Of a stretch of 34,938 bases of DNA, positions 1 through 34,938 are shown piece by piece. Under the pieces are notes generated by a model. It worked only from the letters and a program-made list of their open reading frames with translations, had not been told where the DNA came from and did not search any database. The translations under genes were made by a program, and so were the position numbers. Numbering within the stretch: the first letter of the stretch is position 1; each line of letters begins with the position of its first letter. Source of the stretch: a virus; the IMG/VR virus record IMGVR_UViG_3300037296_000122, positions 1 to 34,938 of that record; one strand, written 5' to 3'.

Positions 1-43
1 TAAAATAATGAAAGCCTACTACAAAGAAAAAAGCGAGTGGTAA
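1..43 (+). CDS. C-terminal end of the fibre-like gene at the right edge (circular join)
   Basis: If base 34938 is joined to base 1, the open frame starting at 33311 continues as HKIMKAYYKEKSEW and stops at TAA 41-43. The joined gene is exactly 557 codons (556 aa plus stop). The next gene starts at 47, so spacing is normal for this operon. The in-frame continuation is seen in the sequence; that the ends really join is inference. Confidence 0.65.
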   Translation, partial: KIMKAYYKEKSEW

Positions 44-1923: not shown

Positions 1924-3186
1924 TTAGTTAAAAAACGAGTTAACTTTCTCTTTATCAGCACGAACATATCGACTCATTAAAGTCTTAACATCGACACCGC
2001 TTGCTTCTTCTAATATCTTTAAATTTCCATTTACTTGCTCATTCATCTTAGATAGTCGTATATGCTTAAGCTCGTACATGTGAAGTAAATTCTTCTTTGT
2101 TGGTTTATATCCGGCCATCTTTCTTGCGTCAACCCACGCTTTATTTAAACCACCTTGAGAGATATTATTTCCATAGGCATTAGTGAAAACAAAGTCATTT
2201 TTGCTTGATGATGAATCTTGTTTAAGTATTATGTCTCTTGCGATCTTGCTTAGTTTTAAAGTTATTGAAGCCAACTTGTCGCCAGCTTTACGAGACTTTC
2301 GACCTTCAACGTTATCAGTCCCAGAGAAGTGAGAGTCAAAAGTAATTGTGTTATTATTCAAGTCTACATTTTCCCACTTTAAGGCGCGTATTTCTCCAGG
2401 TCTTACTGGGTAGATAGTTAGTAATAACATCAACCCTCGAAGCTTCACATCGTTAACGTGAGCTATTATATCGAGTCCAACGGCTTCGGTCATAGTATGC
2501 TCTCTAAGTCTTGATTTTCCAATTGTACCGATATCGACGACCTTGGTTATGTAGTCTCTTTTTTGAGCGAATAAAAGAATAGTTTTAAGTTCTGACTTAG
2601 CTTTCCTAAGAGTGTTATCAGTTCCCTCGAAGTTATCCTCAAACTTAGAAATATGATATTTCCTGATTTTATCGATTGATATATTAGCAAAGAACTCCAG
2701 TAGGTGCTTATGAGATTTCTTTTTATCCCTCAAACCCTCAAAGGTTAGCTGTCCTTTTTTATATCTCTTCTCGTGATGCTTCATATAGGAGAGAAGGAAG
2801 TTTTTAAAGATTAAGTTTTCTTGCTTCTTTTTGCTTTGATAGTCGTTGACATTGAACTCACCATTTTCTAAATCTCTTTTGATAATTCTGTATGTATAGA
2901 TAATGTCGGACTCAAACTTAAGACGTTCCTTGTCTTTAGTTCGCCTTATGGTTACGCGTTTGCTTTCGCCGTCCATATCTTCAATCTTTGCTGAAATTCG
3001 GAATAGGCTAGGAGGTTCTTTACATGAATCACATACAGGAAATTCAACATTTTCCTTAGTTTTACGACCTGTAAATTTACCACCGCACTCGCAAGTATTA
3101 CCTTTCACATCGGCATATATTTTAGCACTCAAGAAATTCCCTCTATTTGTTGGGTTATGAATGTTAAAAAGTACGGCCTTTGTCAT
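1924..3186 (-). CDS. int: Tyrosine recombinase / phage integrase with N-terminal zinc ribbon
   Basis: The 420-aa protein has a CxC...CxxC zinc-ribbon-like segment (C32, C34, C52, C55), a helical SAM-like core-binding region at about 120-215, and a C-terminal catalytic domain. Box I is VRPGEIRALKW, with the presumed catalytic R262 and E265. A basic turn at 296-304 may supply the catalytic Lys. LMSRYVRA holds the presumed nucleophile Y407. The usual HxLRH box appears as YELKH (371-375), so His becomes Tyr and Arg becomes Lys, and the later GH/W position is not obvious. The nearest GGAG is 13 bases before the ATG, suggesting weak translation. It is expected to recombine attP (1567-1597) with a host tRNA gene. 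Confidence 0.93.
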   Translation of the reverse strand: MTKAVLFNIHNPTNRGNFLSAKIYADVKGNTCECGGKFTGRKTKENVEFPVCDSCKEPPSLFRISAKIEDMDGESKRVTIRRTKDKERLKFESDIIYTYRIIKRDLENGEFNVNDYQSKKKQENLIFKNFLLSYMKHHEKRYKKGQLTFEGLRDKKKSHKHLLEFFANISIDKIRKYHISKFEDNFEGTDNTLRKAKSELKTILLFAQKRDYITKVVDIGTIGKSRLREHTMTEAVGLDIIAHVNDVKLRGLMLLLTIYPVRPGEIRALKWENVDLNNNTITFDSHFSGTDNVEGRKSRKAGDKLASITLKLSKIARDIILKQDSSSSKNDFVFTNAYGNNISQGGLNKAWVDARKMAGYKPTKKNLLHMYELKHIRLSKMNEQVNGNLKILEEASGVDVKTLMSRYVRADKEKVNSFFN

Positions 3187-3228
3187 GGTAGTTCAATTTC
3201 TCCTGTGGAAATTTATTTTCTAGTTGCG

Positions 3229-3519
3229 TTAAGTTGTTGTTATTTTATTAATTAACTTGTCTATTATTTGATTCAAGTTGTGAGCGTGATCCTCTTTGTC
3301 GATATGTTTTTGATCTAATAGCTTCTTGTAATCTGTCGGCTCTAATCCATTTTCTATTTCTGTATTTATTGGCAAAGATAGTGCTATTGGTATCTCTTGA
3401 AATTGATCGACTTTTGTTTCTTTACCATTAACCATGGCAATTAAATCTTTACCTTCATTTCTAAAGGCTCTAATCTCAAGCCGCCCTCTCATTATGTTCT
3501 TGTATATTGTTACTCTCAT
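3229..3519 (-). CDS. Hypothetical protein upstream of integrase
   Basis: A 96-aa protein starting MRVTIYKNIMRGRLEIRAF, with a beta-rich first half (VNGKETKVDQF) and a helical, charged end (NLNQIIDKLINKI). It has no Cys, no membrane segment and no signal peptide. AAGG lies about seven bases before the ATG. It is one of the small genes in the leftward operon and precedes the integrase by 42 bases. No family is recognised and no function can be given. Confidence 0.65.
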   Translation of the reverse strand: MRVTIYKNIMRGRLEIRAFRNEGKDLIAMVNGKETKVDQFQEIPIALSLPINTEIENGLEPTDYKKLLDQKHIDKEDHAHNLNQIIDKLINKITTT

Positions 3520-3543
3520 CTTTTACCTTCGCACTCTATGTGC

Positions 3544-3765
3544 TTATAAAAATGCTTCTATTTTACTTATTGTGAAGTTTTTACTATCCCAACCATTAGA
3601 AACTCTCTTTGTTTCTATAGATAATGTTGAATTAACAATCTCATAAATCTCTGAAACCTCAACCATTTCATCCAGCTCAATTAATGCTCTCGTTTCAATA
3701 GCCTTTCCAGATCCACCTTGATAGTTGTCAGGTTGAAAAATTGTGTATTTTATTAGTAGTTTCAT
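3544..3765 (-). CDS. Small hypothetical early protein
   Basis: A 73-aa protein (MKLLIKYTIFQPDNY...) with predicted beta-strands at the start, an acidic middle (ALIELDEMVEVSEIYEIV) and a C-terminal KIEAFL. A strong GGAGGG lies six bases before the ATG, which supports translation. It is set between other short leftward genes with 24-32 base gaps. It has no Cys and no transmembrane helix. I do not recognise it. Confidence 0.65.
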   Translation of the reverse strand: MKLLIKYTIFQPDNYQGGSGKAIETRALIELDEMVEVSEIYEIVNSTLSIETKRVSNGWDSKNFTISKIEAFL

Positions 3766-3797
3766 ATTCCCTCCATCACCGCATAACGGTTAGTTGA

Positions 3798-4004
3798 TCA
3801 CCAGACGTAAGTCGCATCACCTTTTATGTCTCGATGCACTTCTAAATTTCCATATATTTCAATGTCGCTATGATTTAAATCTTCTTTTTTTATTAAAGGG
3901 TCGTATCTTACAGGTGCGCCGTTTTCAATTAGAGAGTCTATAAAATCTGAATAGTTCATTCTTTGAAAATCGACCTCCAAAACGTGCAACATTCCTTTAC
4001 TCAT
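3798..4004 (-). CDS. Small hypothetical early protein preceded by the 26-bp cassette
   Basis: A 68-aa acidic protein (MSKGMLHVLEVDFQRMNYSDF...). It follows copy 1 of an exact 26-bp repeat that ends in its ribosome-binding site: GGAGAAG stands right before AAATG. Thus its translation signal is shared, base for base, with the genes starting at 4286 and 4450. It has no recognised domain, Cys or membrane segment. Confidence 0.65.
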   Translation of the reverse strand: MSKGMLHVLEVDFQRMNYSDFIDSLIENGAPVRYDPLIKKEDLNHSDIEIYGNLEVHRDIKGDATYVW

Positions 4005-4008
4005 TTCT

Positions 4009-4034
4009 TCTCCATACCCATAAGGGTTATTTAA
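4009..4034 (-). repeat. 26-bp hairpin/ribosome-binding cassette, copy 1
   Basis: One of three identical 26-bp copies (others at 4292-4317 and 4455-4480). In gene sense it reads TTAAATAA, then the inverted repeat ACCCTTATGGGT, then ATGGAGA, which contains the Shine-Dalgarno sequence of the next gene. It lies entirely in the gap between two genes. Confidence 0.9.
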
Positions 4035-4040
4035 TCCAAC

Positions 4041-4286
4041 TTAAAATTTAACCATACCAAAAACCACAAAATCTTCTGCTTGCTCATAATCTGTAATATA
4101 GGTAATTATTCTAGAAACAGCATTGCCAGTGTACATATTGTGATTGTCAAACTCTCTTAGGCATACAATTTGACCAACTTGAAAATCTCTGTCATTTCTT
4201 CTTATCTCAAATGTTTTAGTCTCTTCTAATACATCTTGGAAATAATCAGTATGCAACTTAAGTTCTTGGTCATAATGTTTATCCAT
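4041..4286 (-). CDS. DUF3850-type ASCH/PUA-fold protein
   Basis: The 81-aa product matches the DUF3850 pattern: an HxLKL-like opening, YFQDVLEETKTFEIRRNDRDF, VGQIVCLREFD, then YTG and a final hydrophobic strand. This small family belongs to the ASCH/PUA-like fold, thought to bind RNA or modified nucleic acid, and is common in phage early regions. The frame is open up to 4304, inside the repeat. The ATG at 4286 is chosen because GGAG lies six bases upstream and the family starts near the HxLKL segment. It is preceded by copy 2 of the 26-bp cassette. The biochemical role is not established. Confidence 0.85.
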   Translation of the reverse strand: MDKHYDQELKLHTDYFQDVLEETKTFEIRRNDRDFQVGQIVCLREFDNHNMYTGNAVSRIITYITDYEQAEDFVVFGMVKF

Positions 4287-4291
4287 TTCAT

Positions 4292-4317
4292 TCTCCATAC
4301 CCATAAGGGTTATTTAA
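4292..4317 (-). repeat. 26-bp hairpin/ribosome-binding cassette, copy 2
   Basis: Identical to copies at 4009-4034 and 4455-4480. It contains the TAA stop (4310-4312) of the 46-aa gene upstream and the GGAG used by the DUF3850 gene downstream. Confidence 0.9.
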
Positions 4318-4450
4318 TCTTTAACAATGCTTTCTCTAAGTTATCTAACATAGGCTTTTTGTTTTGCTCCCCAAGGTGCATATCCCAAGCAATTAGCTTT
4401 TGAAGCTCACCGATAATCAAACACAAAGCCTCTTTTTCTTCTTGATTCAT
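4310..4450 (-). CDS. 46-aa hypothetical protein
   Basis: Read directly from the minus strand: MNQEEKEALCLIIGELQKL, then IAWDMHLGEQNKKPMLDNLE, then KALLKIK and TAA at 4310-4312. It is helical, with charged and leucine-rich faces. The ATG at 4450 has GGAGAAAGA just upstream, in copy 3 of the 26-bp cassette, and its stop is inside copy 2, so it exactly fills the interval between repeats. That fit and the good ribosome-binding site support it as real despite its size. No family recognised. Confidence 0.6.
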   Translation of the reverse strand: MNQEEKEALCLIIGELQKLIAWDMHLGEQNKKPMLDNLEKALLKIK

Positions 4451-4454
4451 TCTT

Positions 4455-4480
4455 TCTCCATACCCATAAGGGTTATTTAA
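4455..4480 (-). repeat. 26-bp hairpin/ribosome-binding cassette, copy 3
   Basis: Identical to copies 1 and 2. It lies between the stop of the 91-aa gene (4482) and the start of the 46-aa gene (4450). A looser relative (TATGGAGAAAGAATG preceded by an AGCC...GGCT inverted repeat) is found at about 4757-4790, inside coding sequence. Confidence 0.9.
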
Positions 4481-4481
4481 A

Positions 4482-4757
4482 TTAAGAAAGCAGACCTAGA
4501 ATCTCTTTCATCTTTTTTATATTTTGACCTTTCACGGCGAAGCCAATCATTCTAGCAGCTTCATCAAACTGAGATTCGCTAATAAAGCTCTTCTTTTCTT
4601 CAACTTCATAAATTATAGTAATCGGATATTTATATTTTCCCTCGGCTATACTTAGAAATGTAGCTCCTACTCTTGGGTTTTTATCGTCTACGTCTAAGAT
4701 GTTTTCTAACTCGTATTTCTCGCAATACAACGTAGCTTCTTTGGTTATTCTGCTCAT
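4482..4757 (-). CDS. Hypothetical early protein
   Basis: A 91-aa protein (MSRITKEATLYCEKYELENI...) with a central strand-rich stretch (YPITIIYEVEEKKSF) and a C-terminal helix (NIKKMKEILGLLS). Its ATG overlaps the stop of the preceding coiled-coil gene (ATGA) and GGAG lies seven bases upstream, so the two are translationally coupled. One Cys, no membrane segment. Function unknown. Confidence 0.68.
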   Translation of the reverse strand: MSRITKEATLYCEKYELENILDVDDKNPRVGATFLSIAEGKYKYPITIIYEVEEKKSFISESQFDEAARMIGFAVKGQNIKKMKEILGLLS

Positions 4758-26413: not shown

Positions 26414-26742
26414 TGGTATCAATGTACGCTGAATATATAAAAGAACGCGAAGGGAAACAGATCATCGAAGATGAGAAGGGATTTGCGACTTTTATGATTA
26501 AGGGAACTGAGTGTTACATTGCAGACATATTTATAAAAAAAGAATTTAGAAACGCCGGCGCTGGTTCAAATTACGCCGATCAAATATCAATTATTGCTCG
26601 CGAGAATGGTTGCGAGGTTTTAACTGGCTCAGTTACTCCCAGTTTTAGAGGGGCAAGTGTTTCGATGCAAGCTCAATTAAAATATGGGTTTGAGATTTCC
26701 TCAGCTCACGAAGATTTTATTTTACTTAAAAAGGAATTGTAA
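26413..26742 (+). CDS. GNAT-fold acetyltransferase-like protein 2
   Basis: The 109-aa protein has the acetyl-CoA loop in IFIKKEFRNAGAGSNYADQI: R46-N-A-G49-A-G51 fits the RxxGxG/A motif better than GNAT 1. A following strand (GCEVLTGSVTP) and the LKYGFEISS end complete a short GNAT core. It lies between nozzle and ejection genes, where T7-like phages carry the GNAT-related gp13 internal virion protein, so it may be packaged or act in assembly. It overlaps both neighbours. Confidence 0.8.
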   Translation: MVSMYAEYIKEREGKQIIEDEKGFATFMIKGTECYIADIFIKKEFRNAGAGSNYADQISIIARENGCEVLTGSVTPSFRGASVSMQAQLKYGFEISSAHEDFILLKKEL

Positions 26743-27662
26743 TGGGTGGTAAAAATAGTATGTTTCGTAAACCTTTGGGGGCTGGTAGTAGCTCGGTAAA
26801 TAGTGCTGTTGAGGGTGCTGTTGGAAAGGATGTTAAGGGTTTTTTTGATGCCTCTGGATCGTTAATGGCAGGTAATATCGGTGGAGCTGTTGATGCAGTT
26901 GGGAACCCTTTCGAGCAACCAGAGCTTGAAGAGGCTGAGTTAAGCCCAGAGGATTTAGCAAGATCGAAAACTTTTGCAGGGCAACTAGATCAAGATATTA
27001 GCGGAAATAAAAACTCGCTTGCTATAGCTCAGTACAAGCAAGCTCAGCAAGACGGTTTAAAGAGCGCTATGGCGCTTGGTTCTTCGGTCAAGGGGGTTTC
27101 AAACCCTGCTTTAATGGCAAGAAATGTCGCTCAAGCCGCTGACGGTCAAGGGCAAGCACTCGCGCAAGATTCTGCGATGATGAAAATGCAAGAAAGACAG
27201 AATGCTTTACAGCAAATGAACTCTTATATTGCGGCGAAAGAGGGTGTTGCTTTAAATCAAGCAAACATGGCAAACCAAGCAAATATCGCTAATTCAAACG
27301 CTAATAAGCAGCTTATTGGTGGCATCGGTGGTGCTGCTGCAACAGTGCTTGCATCAGATAAAAACAACAAAAAGAACATTAAGAAAACAGATGGCGAGGC
27401 GGGTGACAAGGCAATGGAGATGCTTAGTGCTTTGGATGCTTATAGTTTTGAGTATAAAGATAGGATGGGCAAGAAAGGCGAACACGCTGGCATTATGGCT
27501 CAAGACCTTGAGAAGACCGAAGCTGGAGAACAGATGGTTAAAGAGACTCCAGAGGGTAAAGTTGTAGATTTTGCTCAAGGCTTCGGATTGCTTTTAGCTG
27601 CTCAAACAGAACTAAAAAAAGAACTCGATGAAATGAAAAAAAAGAAGGTGAAAAATGCCTAA
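26742..27662 (+). CDS. Virion protein with C-terminal S74 intramolecular chaperone domain
   Basis: The 306-aa protein has a Gly/Ala/Gln-rich, helical N-terminal 200 residues like small ejection proteins (LAIAQYKQAQQDGLKSAMAL). From about 204 an S74-type domain follows: ASDKNNKKNIKK, then YSFEYKDRMGKKGEHAGIMA and QDLEKT, VVDFAQGFGLLLAAQTELKK, then a C-terminal coil. S205 and the following Lys fit the self-cleaving Ser/Lys dyad of endosialidase-type chaperones that trimerise fibres. Finding it here, outside the fibre genes, suggests a trimeric tail-tip or needle protein. Cleavage is inferred. Confidence 0.82.
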   Translation: MGGKNSMFRKPLGAGSSSVNSAVEGAVGKDVKGFFDASGSLMAGNIGGAVDAVGNPFEQPELEEAELSPEDLARSKTFAGQLDQDISGNKNSLAIAQYKQAQQDGLKSAMALGSSVKGVSNPALMARNVAQAADGQGQALAQDSAMMKMQERQNALQQMNSYIAAKEGVALNQANMANQANIANSNANKQLIGGIGGAAATVLASDKNNKKNIKKTDGEAGDKAMEMLSALDAYSFEYKDRMGKKGEHAGIMAQDLEKTEAGEQMVKETPEGKVVDFAQGFGLLLAAQTELKKELDEMKKKKVKNA

Positions 27663-31859: not shown

Positions 31860-31916
31860 CTCATCAGTCATTGAGGTCTAGGGCAAAAATCCAAATCCAA
31901 TAGGAGGACTGATGGG
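31860..31916 (+). promoter_or_regulatory. Long-range hairpin burying the start codon of the next gene
   Basis: CTCATCAGTC (31860-31869) pairs with GACTGATGGG (31907-31916) over ten positions with one T-G pair. The right arm contains the ATG at 31912-31914, and the ribosome-binding TAGGAGG sits at the base of the 37-base loop. Folding would hide the start codon. Confidence 0.5.
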
Positions 31917-32268
31917 AAGACGACATTTTACAAAACCATTTAATATTTTAAACGAGCAAGATGCTAGCACAGGTTTCGAGTCTGCGTGGACTGACGTTTC
32001 ACAATACGACAATATTAGTTACTTGATAGATTGGACTGATACCGTTGATGGTGTTTTGTCTGTTGTCTCATCTGATAAAAACGGCGGCGGTGTAGAGCAT
32101 AAGCTAGACTTCGGTTCTATTATTCCAATAAATGACTCTGTAGTTCCTAAACAACATCAAATTGTTATTAACACAATCGCTCAAAGCTTTTTTAAACTTT
32201 CTTTTGAGTCAACGTCTGGGACGGGTGTTTTGAACGCTGTCATAACCATGACAAGTAAGGGGGCGTAA
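31912..32268 (+). CDS. Small beta-rich tail-associated protein
   Basis: A 118-aa protein (MGRRHFTKPFNILNEQDAST...) composed of short strands with Ser/Thr/Asp turns and no Cys, suggesting a beta-sandwich. AGGAGG precedes its ATG, but the start is inside a long hairpin. It overlaps the fibre gene by one base. It is probably a fibre-attachment or tail-surface protein; no family is certain. Confidence 0.65.
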   Translation: MGRRHFTKPFNILNEQDASTGFESAWTDVSQYDNISYLIDWTDTVDGVLSVVSSDKNGGGVEHKLDFGSIIPINDSVVPKQHQIVINTIAQSFFKLSFESTSGTGVLNAVITMTSKGA

Positions 32269-33314
32269 TGAGCTTATATGTATTTCCTCCAGTTTCGCTT
32301 TCAATTGCTTCGGCACCTACGAGTTTCGTAAAAGACAATATTAATGTGACGGTCACTGAGAATGATAGTGATGTAACCCAAAACAAACCATTGCCTAGTA
32401 AGTTATTTATTGAAAAAGATGGCGAGTCTATACCTGTTAATAAGGATAGCGTAACGGCTGCAAACACTGTTGCTATACCTGTCGAGATCGTTGCTGTAGA
32501 TGGCGCAGAAATCAACATAACGGCTGGCGATATCAACGTCCAGACATCACACACAGGGGTAAATTTTGACTCTCAGAGAATTGGCAACGGTACAAATCTA
32601 CTTGATGTTAATGCTAGTGGTGAGGCACTTGTTAATGATGCACTTTCTCATACAAAACTAGATGCTGTAATTGCCAAGGACTTCGCAACAGAGGTAACTC
32701 TTGCGGCTCTTTTGGCTAAGATCATAGCAGCACCATCAACAGAGGCAAAACAAGATTTAGTAATTGCTGAACTAGAGAAAAAAGCTGACTTAACCGAGAC
32801 TCAACCTGTTAGCGTTGCTGCTTTACCACTTCCGAGTGGCTCATCAACAGAGGCGAAGCAAGACGATAATATTGCTGAATTAGTAGCAATAAAAGCTATT
32901 GATTTTTCAACAGAAACAACTCAAGCCGCTGTCAGTGGTAAGTTAACAACAATTAGTGACAACATAATAAGCCTTTTAAATACTGCAAAATTATCAATAT
33001 CAAGAGTTGTTGGGCCAATACTTCCAGCATCTACGCAAATACCAAAAAGCTCATCACTACCTCTTGAGATAGTCGCATCAACAACAAAAATCACAAGAAA
33101 AATTCAAACAATTGAAGATGTTGGTGAGTTTATAGGTCTTTACATCGGAGCTGCAAGCAGCGAAACGCTTCACTGTATTCTACCTCTTGCGGGTGGTGAA
33201 GTTGATCTAAACCTTCCAGTAGGTACCCGCCTTTCAATACGACACATGAAAGACACAAATATAACATCATCAACTTTCTTTTCAGCAAATCTTTTCTGGG
33301 ACAACGTACTATGA
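32268..33314 (+). CDS. Tail fibre-like protein with STEAKQD repeats
   Basis: A 348-aa protein. The N-terminal 110 residues are beta-rich and Val/Asp-rich. At about 138-225 a degenerate repeat appears: ATEVTLAALLAKI, STEAKQDLVIAEL, STEAKQDDNIAEL, STETTQAAVSGKL. The last 100 residues form a strand-rich domain ending in a Trp (FWDNVL). Repeats of the ST.AKQD type are found in phage tail fibres as trimeric helical rods. Its stop overlaps the next start (ATGA). It is likely to be the rod or linker for the receptor-binding protein. Confidence 0.75.
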   Translation: MSLYVFPPVSLSIASAPTSFVKDNINVTVTENDSDVTQNKPLPSKLFIEKDGESIPVNKDSVTAANTVAIPVEIVAVDGAEINITAGDINVQTSHTGVNFDSQRIGNGTNLLDVNASGEALVNDALSHTKLDAVIAKDFATEVTLAALLAKIIAAPSTEAKQDLVIAELEKKADLTETQPVSVAALPLPSGSSTEAKQDDNIAELVAIKAIDFSTETTQAAVSGKLTTISDNIISLLNTAKLSISRVVGPILPASTQIPKSSSLPLEIVASTTKITRKIQTIEDVGEFIGLYIGAASSETLHCILPLAGGEVDLNLPVGTRLSIRHMKDTNITSSTFFSANLFWDNVL

Positions 33315-34938
33315 AAAACATTTTAACTTTAATCGCATTTATTCTTGTCTCCTTTGAAGCTTTTTCGGCTGCGGGTTCATTCCCTCAAGGCGATCATGTA
33401 AAGCTCTTAAAAGACAAAATTGAGTATAAAAATTCAAAAATACAAATAATAGGTGGCTCAGGCCAACCCAAGACTTTAGGTGTGGAAGCCGAAGAGGGTT
33501 CAATTTTAAATAACGCTCAGGCATTATTCCACAAGAAAGGTGTTGCAAATACTGATTGGGATAAGGTTATTGTTGATCGCGATCTCTGGAATATCTTTAG
33601 AGAGTCAAAATTTGAGGTCTCAATTGAAGGTTGGGCGCTATCAAGTACGTGTTTGCCCGATTATGAGCAAGTCATTCCTTGGTTCAGAAAATCTCTGAAA
33701 CTTATATGTGACGATGAAAATTTTACTTTAACTGAAGAGTCAACAGATATTGCGGGGGTGGATGCAACAGGATTGGCGAGTGTCTACGTTAAAGCTAGTT
33801 CGGCGGGTGTTAAACTAAAAGTATTAGCTAATGGCGTAACCGATATTGAGCAAGAACTACCTAAAATAGAAAAAATGAGAAGGTTTCAAATTCCTTTTGT
33901 TGTTGACGATACTTCAAATGGAATCGAGATATCAGCAACAAGCTACACAGGAACAGTCTATATTGATAACGCAAAACTAGGCATAGCTCCAGAGGGGTAT
34001 ATATCTAATGTTAATGGTACGAGGTTTATAGGCTCTATGGCATTTCTTAAAAGTAGCCCCATCGATACAGACTGTAGGGTAAATTCTGCTTCAACTTCTT
34101 TTGTTTTAGCCAATTTAACAGGATGTAATACCGCAGGAGTTTTTAAGAACTTAATTCCAGATGAGTCAACATTGAGACCTTCTTTTAAACTAAATGTTGT
34201 TAGTGGGAATACCTACAACTTTCTAGTTAATGACTTTATATACCAATATAATGCCGATGCTATTTGTGAAACGGCTATTTCAGTAGACGGTGGTACAACT
34301 AATCACATACTAAGAAGAAAATCAAGAAATGACACCGCTTATTACGATCAAAGTCAATCAGGTTCAAGCTACGAATTTACGGCAACAACAACAGGGGAAA
34401 TTGTAGTTCAATACCGAACAAGAAATAGTGTCGCTTCTCAATGTGAATTTATGAATAGGCTTGGTGATGTTAAGATTTCAGTCTACGAATACCCAGACCT
34501 ACCACAAGCTATATTAAAGCAGAATACAGAGTTGACGGCTAAGACGGCTAATGCCTTAGGTGCAAAAGTTTCTTCTCTGGGAGCTGTTTCTGATGCACCT
34601 TTTGACTGGCTATCTTGTTCTAATCCAAGCACAGGAACCTATACTTGTATTTTCTCGGGAACATTCTACACGGTATCACCTATCTGTACGGTTACTACAT
34701 CGAGGGGAGATAACAATAGAAATGAAGATGTAGTCACATCTTCTACAGGAATTACTGTCAGGTTAGGTGCTACAACTACAGCTGCCAGCTCTTCCTTTAA
34801 CATTAACTGTTCCAGAGGGAAACCAGACTATAACAAATCAATAGAAATGATAGGCAAGCTCAACCAAACCTCAATAGCAAAAGACGAAGATAAATATACA
34901 GAGACAGAAAAGAAGTGGGGTTTCTGGAATGGTGAGCA
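33311..34938 (+). CDS. Fibre-like adhesin with Sec signal peptide (runs off the right edge)
   Basis: From ATG 33311 the frame is open for 542 full codons to the end; joining to base 1 gives 556 aa. It starts MKNILTLIAFILVSFEAFSA, a clear Sec signal peptide with likely cleavage after S19 or A21. The mature part has a lectin-like beta-sandwich region (QIPFVVDDTSNGIEISATSY, then VYIDNAKLG), several Cys (for example around TCLPDYEQ, LICDDEN, INCSRGKPDY) and a polar end. It follows the repeat fibre by a 4-base overlap. Virion proteins normally lack signal peptides, so this may be an exported, disulfide-bonded surface or fibre-related protein. The role is inferred from place and strand content. Confidence 0.72.
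   Translation, partial: MKNILTLIAFILVSFEAFSAAGSFPQGDHVKLLKDKIEYKNSKIQIIGGSGQPKTLGVEAEEGSILNNAQALFHKKGVANTDWDKVIVDRDLWNIFRESKFEVSIEGWALSSTCLPDYEQVIPWFRKSLKLICDDENFTLTEESTDIAGVDATGLASVYVKASSAGVKLKVLANGVTDIEQELPKIEKMRRFQIPFVVDDTSNGIEISATSYTGTVYIDNAKLGIAPEGYISNVNGTRFIGSMAFLKSSPIDTDCRVNSASTSFVLANLTGCNTAGVFKNLIPDESTLRPSFKLNVVSGNTYNFLVNDFIYQYNADAICETAISVDGGTTNHILRRKSRNDTAYYDQSQSGSSYEFTATTTGEIVVQYRTRNSVASQCEFMNRLGDVKISVYEYPDLPQAILKQNTELTAKTANALGAKVSSLGAVSDAPFDWLSCSNPSTGTYTCIFSGTFYTVSPICTVTTSRGDNNRNEDVVTSSTGITVRLGATTTAASSSFNINCSRGKPDYNKSIEMIGKLNQTSIAKDEDKYTETEKKWGFWNGE

Follow-up and report, generated by a model that had tools for sequence, protein, structure and literature searches.

The window (the whole stretch of DNA analysed, 34,938 bases, equal to the complete IMG/VR record, which is classed as linear) encodes a fibre-like protein at 33311–34938 (542 codons lie inside the window, and the frame is still open where it ends) that begins with a Sec signal peptide at 33311–33373; these, like the modules and neighbouring genes of the fibre given below, lie on the plus strand. 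The signal is confirmed as real at the level of sequence comparison, since it is kept in relatives. Judged by the same comparisons, the gene is a member of a mosaic family, made up of fibre-like phage genes that close the tail module. We lean towards the view that the product is a Sec-exported, fibre-like protein of phages of Bdellovibrio-like predators, resembling the mosaic adhesive trimer (MAT) fibres of Bdellovibrio, and that it acts in the host envelope and not as an ordinary virion fibre. For the window fibre we infer export, trimerisation, disulphides, surface display, a predator host and an adhesive function. The first-pass annotation is partly supported overall, its export signal and its fibre character having both held.

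Signal peptide and its conservation in relatives

Window 33311–33373 encodes MKNILTLIAFILVSFEAFSAA, in which n-, h- and c-regions are all present. The cut is predicted after residue 21 (SAA/GS) in preference to residue 20, for which position −3 would be Phe. Scoring used a rule that asks for a hydrophobic core, a net positive start and a small-x-small site. In its strict form this rule excluded the window signal on account of Glu16 in the c-region; the relaxed form allows one charged residue there. Under the relaxed form, 2.9% of 20,000 shuffles of the N-terminal 45 residues of the protein itself pass, and 0.45% reach the window score. Among the loci of the earlier collection, 16 of 525 distinct ORFs with a length of 200 aa or more pass; in forty phage stretches added later, with any start in the first 60 codons allowed, 20/380 pass the signal rule. 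As sequence evidence for the signal, conservation in relatives is stronger than the rule score. Even a divergent relative, L200, aligns with the window protein from residue 1 (29% identity over 1–224). The claimed export signal is therefore borne out by its three regions and by its conservation in many relatives, and the proviso that relatives might start downstream and lack the signal is contradicted, as they keep it.

The podophage relatives were found through the portal and then followed downstream. Four contigs (G010, G011, G012 and G018) possess genes related to the 348-aa and 934-aa genes of the window, and a signal-bearing fibre stands next or next but one after the 348-aa relative in 5/5 podophage contigs (these four and the window), that is, in those having the 348-aa relative and DNA continuing into the following genes. 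The fibres of G010, G011 and G018 measure 594–751 aa where complete; that of G012 is cut by the contig end. A scan with the first module of the podophage fibres gave 21 loci, of which L195, L196, L197 and L206 coincide with the contigs G011, G010, G012 and G018, and L198 begins at a contig edge. A signal is present in 19 of the 21, in 16 by rule and in three by eye (L210, L211 and L215). No signal is seen in L214, and L212 was left out of the count, since it shows no clear fibre. For fourteen of the 21 the match is confined to the part after the signal, and 12 of the fourteen carry one. In L207, L209 and L215 the signal is joined to what we take, from their repeat motifs, to be classic phage shaft repeats. 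Some of the signal-bearing contigs may come from phages of hosts other than Bdellovibrio-like bacteria. A separate podophage contig, G014, encodes by eye a signal-bearing papain-like protease (L166, 5459–6346; NQGACGSCWAF).

A second set of relatives was gathered by scans with the N-terminus of L002 and then with its 72-aa post-signal module, which gave 39 loci. In 12 of these a signal immediately precedes the module, and VNA/KTLKVD is one example of the cleavage sites; since several are near-identical, the independent lineages number fewer than 12. The remaining 27 hold the module inside ordinary fibres with no credible signal, and a rule match in L132 was not counted because it used an internal start. 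The same relationship is seen in the ordinary phage fibres of cyanophages and others with GGTG or 'NGDITITPNGTGDIVLDG' shafts, which share their shaft modules with the family but differ in having the module internal and no signal peptide. Among nine fibres of annotated records picked from the homology matches (eight phage records and one plasmid), none has a signal. These signal-less fibres, together with the small-x-small signals conserved in many divergent relatives, argue against the notion that the hydrophobic N-terminus of the window protein is an uncleaved anchor or a chance resemblance and that the protein remains in the cell as an ordinary fibre; Glu16 and the strict-rule rejection speak for that reading, which we consider very improbable.

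Where upstream DNA could be read, the gene order in the siphophage group of this set is tape measure, 256 aa, 149 aa, 74 aa and signal-bearing fibre, and the shaft starts right after the cleavage site with no docking domain, as judged by position. In L002 (1411–1454) the 74-aa ORF, which ends in VENASFEA, overlaps the fibre start in the +1 frame. A frameshift fusion of the two was rejected on account of the +1 frame difference, the lack of a slippery site by eye and the hydrophobic stretch downstream of the overlap. The L076 gene directly after the signal-bearing fibre (4328–4684) also has a signal-like N-terminus (MKYLILLLISLNSFA) and is a possible exported partner.

Modules and cysteine content of the window protein

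Residues 22–93, to which no domain is assigned, sit between the signal and a first beta module (33590–33988; residues 94–226), whose relatives are the 'NPGFE' modules of other phage fibres with a signal (31–35% identity), and for which the name 'jelly-roll' is an interpretation. It is followed by a central Cys-bearing module (34004–34498; residues 232–396), possibly a relative of the TNF-like tip of Bd2734, and by a second Cys-bearing module (34550–34897; residues 414–529) common to G010, G018 and others. The beta-rich, sugar-binding sandwich proposed at first draws its only support from sequence relation to other modules, the AlphaFold models of the window protein (P0001) and L002 being unusable (mean pLDDT 31 and 32). 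Searches with P0001 returned nothing from Pfam at E up to 1 and matches of E 0.17 or worse from PHROGs, and neither it nor the window portal matched INPHARED; genome contigs searched with the portal alignment gave one Rhodobacteraceae MAG (35%).

Of the 521 residues of the mature protein 10 are Cys, whereas 23 Cys occur among the 5173 residues of eleven other structural or packaging ORFs in the same phage (Fisher p 5e-4, with the comparison ORFs hand-picked and residues treated as independent), in agreement with the first description of it as Cys-bearing. The mature counts in relatives are 12 (L002), 0 (L076), 6 (L077), 12 (L078), 12 (L079) and 15 (L081). Because the mature part of L076 has no Cys, disulphides are not a general reason for export; export to an oxidising compartment is plausible for most relatives and is not needed for L076. 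The L076 fibre (1984–4326) carries at residues 654–760 a C1q domain tip (Pfam E 6e-12), placed here on a signal-bearing phage fibre.

Bdellovibrio phage phi1422, MAT fibres and a role in the envelope

The G018 fibre matches three INPHARED records, two of which are the one Bdellovibrio phage phi1422, the third being the uncultured podovirus ct8d5349, whose relative is also signal-bearing. The phi1422 protein, gp68 (AFC22588.1, 'hypothetical protein'), is a 614-aa modular protein with a signal peptide (N-terminus MKFMIAFIIALFSVTMATA, then the cut and Q), encoded behind gp67 ('putative tail-fiber protein') and ahead of a small membrane protein. It is the sole such gene found in an isolated phage, and that phage was isolated on Bdellovibrio. 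Its signal, modular make-up and position after the tail genes are like those of the window protein, although gp68 does not match P0001 directly and is linked to it via modules of G018, L203, L076 and L081; moreover, phi1422 is a myovirus, whereas the window phage appears podovirus-like by its portal and tail genes. According to the available parts of PMC3391216, phi1422 is in the phiPLPE group and is listed as lytic; the terms 'signal peptide' and 'gp68' are absent from the main text as available. The rule finds no signal-bearing fibre in four phages of that group from non-predators (Vibrio CP-T1, Aeromonas 56, Pectobacterium ZF40 and Iodobacter PLPE); three rule matches, one in 56 and two in ZF40, were dismissed, being a frame on the reverse strand, an exonuclease by annotation and a hypothetical protein encoded well before the tail-fibre genes. 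By the same rule no signal-bearing fibre is found in a second Bdellovibrio phage, phi1402, whose gp39 has a signal yet by eye looks like a lysis protein. Literature searches on signal peptides of phage fibres, with passages of PMC3556154, PMC12309495 and PMC12989515 among the text covered, turned up no description of such proteins.

Bdellovibrio bacteriovorus has 21 MAT fibres with signal peptides and swapped tips, several of them shown on the predator surface, and the deposited structures are of fibre-tip constructs only, among them 8OKW (Bd2734 691–843), a solved tip (PMC10769870, as excerpted). The G011 fibre matches one PDB chain, 8OKW_C, with E 6.2e-5 for the whole fibre and 1.5e-5 for the module alone, and so has a module in common with the Bd2734 tip. 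A profile of the G011 module with the window, L002 and L078 sequences matches 8OKW at E 2.9e-10; the window-family profile alone does so at E 0.039, ranked below OspA repeat proteins. The OspA matches of profile A12 were dismissed as weak single stretches, the entries presumably being engineered repeat proteins. An hhalign comparison of the window and G011 module groups was negative (0.8% probability), and at the limits applied the PDB yielded nothing for phi1422 gp68, G018, ct8d5349 and L002. By sequence, then, the link to the MAT tip is firm for G011 and suggestive for the window protein. MAT fibres and the window family are alike in possessing a signal peptide and a phage-fibre-like mosaic with swapped beta tips. 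The MAT fibres are trimeric and have a conserved beta-rich domain of ~130 aa right after the signal, and the window gene differs from theirs in being phage-encoded in a late tail module, not on a predator chromosome. The Bdellovibrio parallel drawn in the first-pass annotation has become more than a parallel, given that phi1422 carries such a gene and that the G011 member shares a module with a solved MAT tip; by analogy, a Bdellovibrio host for the window phage is suggested by these same two observations.

In the mechanism that we propose, late tail transcription and coupled translation would make the fibre-like protein, whose N-terminal signal peptide would replace the virion-docking part of ordinary phage fibres. 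Sec would carry the protein across the inner membrane before lysis, its cysteines could pair beyond that membrane, and the modular beta protein with changeable tips would work like the MAT surface fibres, the adhesive fibre acting at the infected cell's envelope, within it or on its surface, or being released from it by lysis. We favour an envelope role because phi1422 gp68 stands beside an annotated tail fibre, not instead of one. The conservation of the signal, the sister phages without the gene, the MAT-tip match and the Cys enrichment point the same way, whereas the tail-module location is that expected of a virion fibre. Against a MAT-like predator fibre stand the absence of such a fibre from phi1402, the weak match of the window tip, the negative hhalign result and the chance that some signal-bearing contigs have other bacteria as hosts.

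The location directly after the tail genes, at the end of their module, also fits a true virion receptor-binding fibre on a detour, which would be exported by Sec, fold and be oxidised in the periplasm and join tails at lysis. Its modules are those of phage fibres, and Cys-rich tips would gain from an oxidising compartment. However, the siphophage shafts start right behind the cleavage site without a docking domain, phi1422 has its own tail fibre in gp67, and L076 needs no oxidation; we regard this detour as unlikely, if worth serious attention.

Returning to the favoured envelope role, the presence of signal-bearing fibre genes in many viruses suggests that fibres are made for the exterior of the infected cell and not only for virions, and raises the general question of why a tailed phage exports a fibre rather than mounting it on the virion. 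MAT fibres have been proposed to decide which prey Bdellovibrio recognises; the origin of their phage-like make-up is, to our knowledge, an open question. A phage-side family with a MAT-like export signal, and in one member a MAT tip, offers a concrete exchange route. It is conceivable, though improbable, that predator phages carry their own MAT-like exported fibres, trade tips with MAT genes and re-aim or disable the prey attachment of infected or lysogenic predators, and that the MAT repertoire grew by capturing such genes. The foremost testable gene of the signal-bearing family is phi1422 gp68.

Gene slot and layout of the record

The fibre gene is the last of the tail module, with the lysis genes close behind it; the window as a whole has 37.2% GC. 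It is preceded by a 118-aa tail-module gene (31912–32268) and a 348-aa tail-module protein (32268–33314), the stop of which overlaps the fibre start (ATGA); from this overlap and the gene order we infer late, coupled expression. Downstream of it are a small membrane protein with a coiled coil in a holin- or spanin-like position (47–337) and, as the next gene of the lysis cassette, a Peptidase M15 endolysin (334–729). L002, a close relative of the window fibre (62% identity over residues 145–542), spans both window ends, from which we conclude that the record is a circle cut inside the fibre gene. The window end corresponds to L002 3383 and the window start to L002 3611, leaving ~227 bp of L002 (in its own numbering) without counterpart between them; on the linearised circle, this comparison places the last codons and stop of the fibre gene at window 1–8, with the stop at 6–8. 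The gene at 47–337 is 67% identical to its L002 counterpart. The break (window 1 and 34938), falling inside the fibre tip, could reflect population variation.

The window phage possesses integrase- and repressor-like genes, as read from the translations, which would suit a factor for lysogenic conversion or exclusion, of the kind of lambda Lom. Once exported to the cell surface, such a factor would alter adhesion or would mask the phage receptor, as a guard against superinfection or binding to debris. Lom is a precedent, being like the window protein signal-bearing and encoded among tail genes (PMC12309495, available sections), but it is an outer-membrane barrel and not a fibre. The start overlapping the upstream stop points instead to late co-translation, and phi1422 is listed as lytic (PMC3391216, in the parts cited above); we hold such a factor to be quite unlikely.

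An S74 chaperone domain (E 1.7e-10) occurs in the window not on the fibre but on a 306-aa protein (26742–27659) among ejection-type genes, and an S74 end was not found in L002, a further point of difference from the MAT fibres. Between the lysis genes and the integrase (1450–1480) lies a tRNA T-arm-like sequence, at which ARAGORN reports no tRNA; from its T-arm motif we take GGTTCGATTCC to be a possible attachment site.
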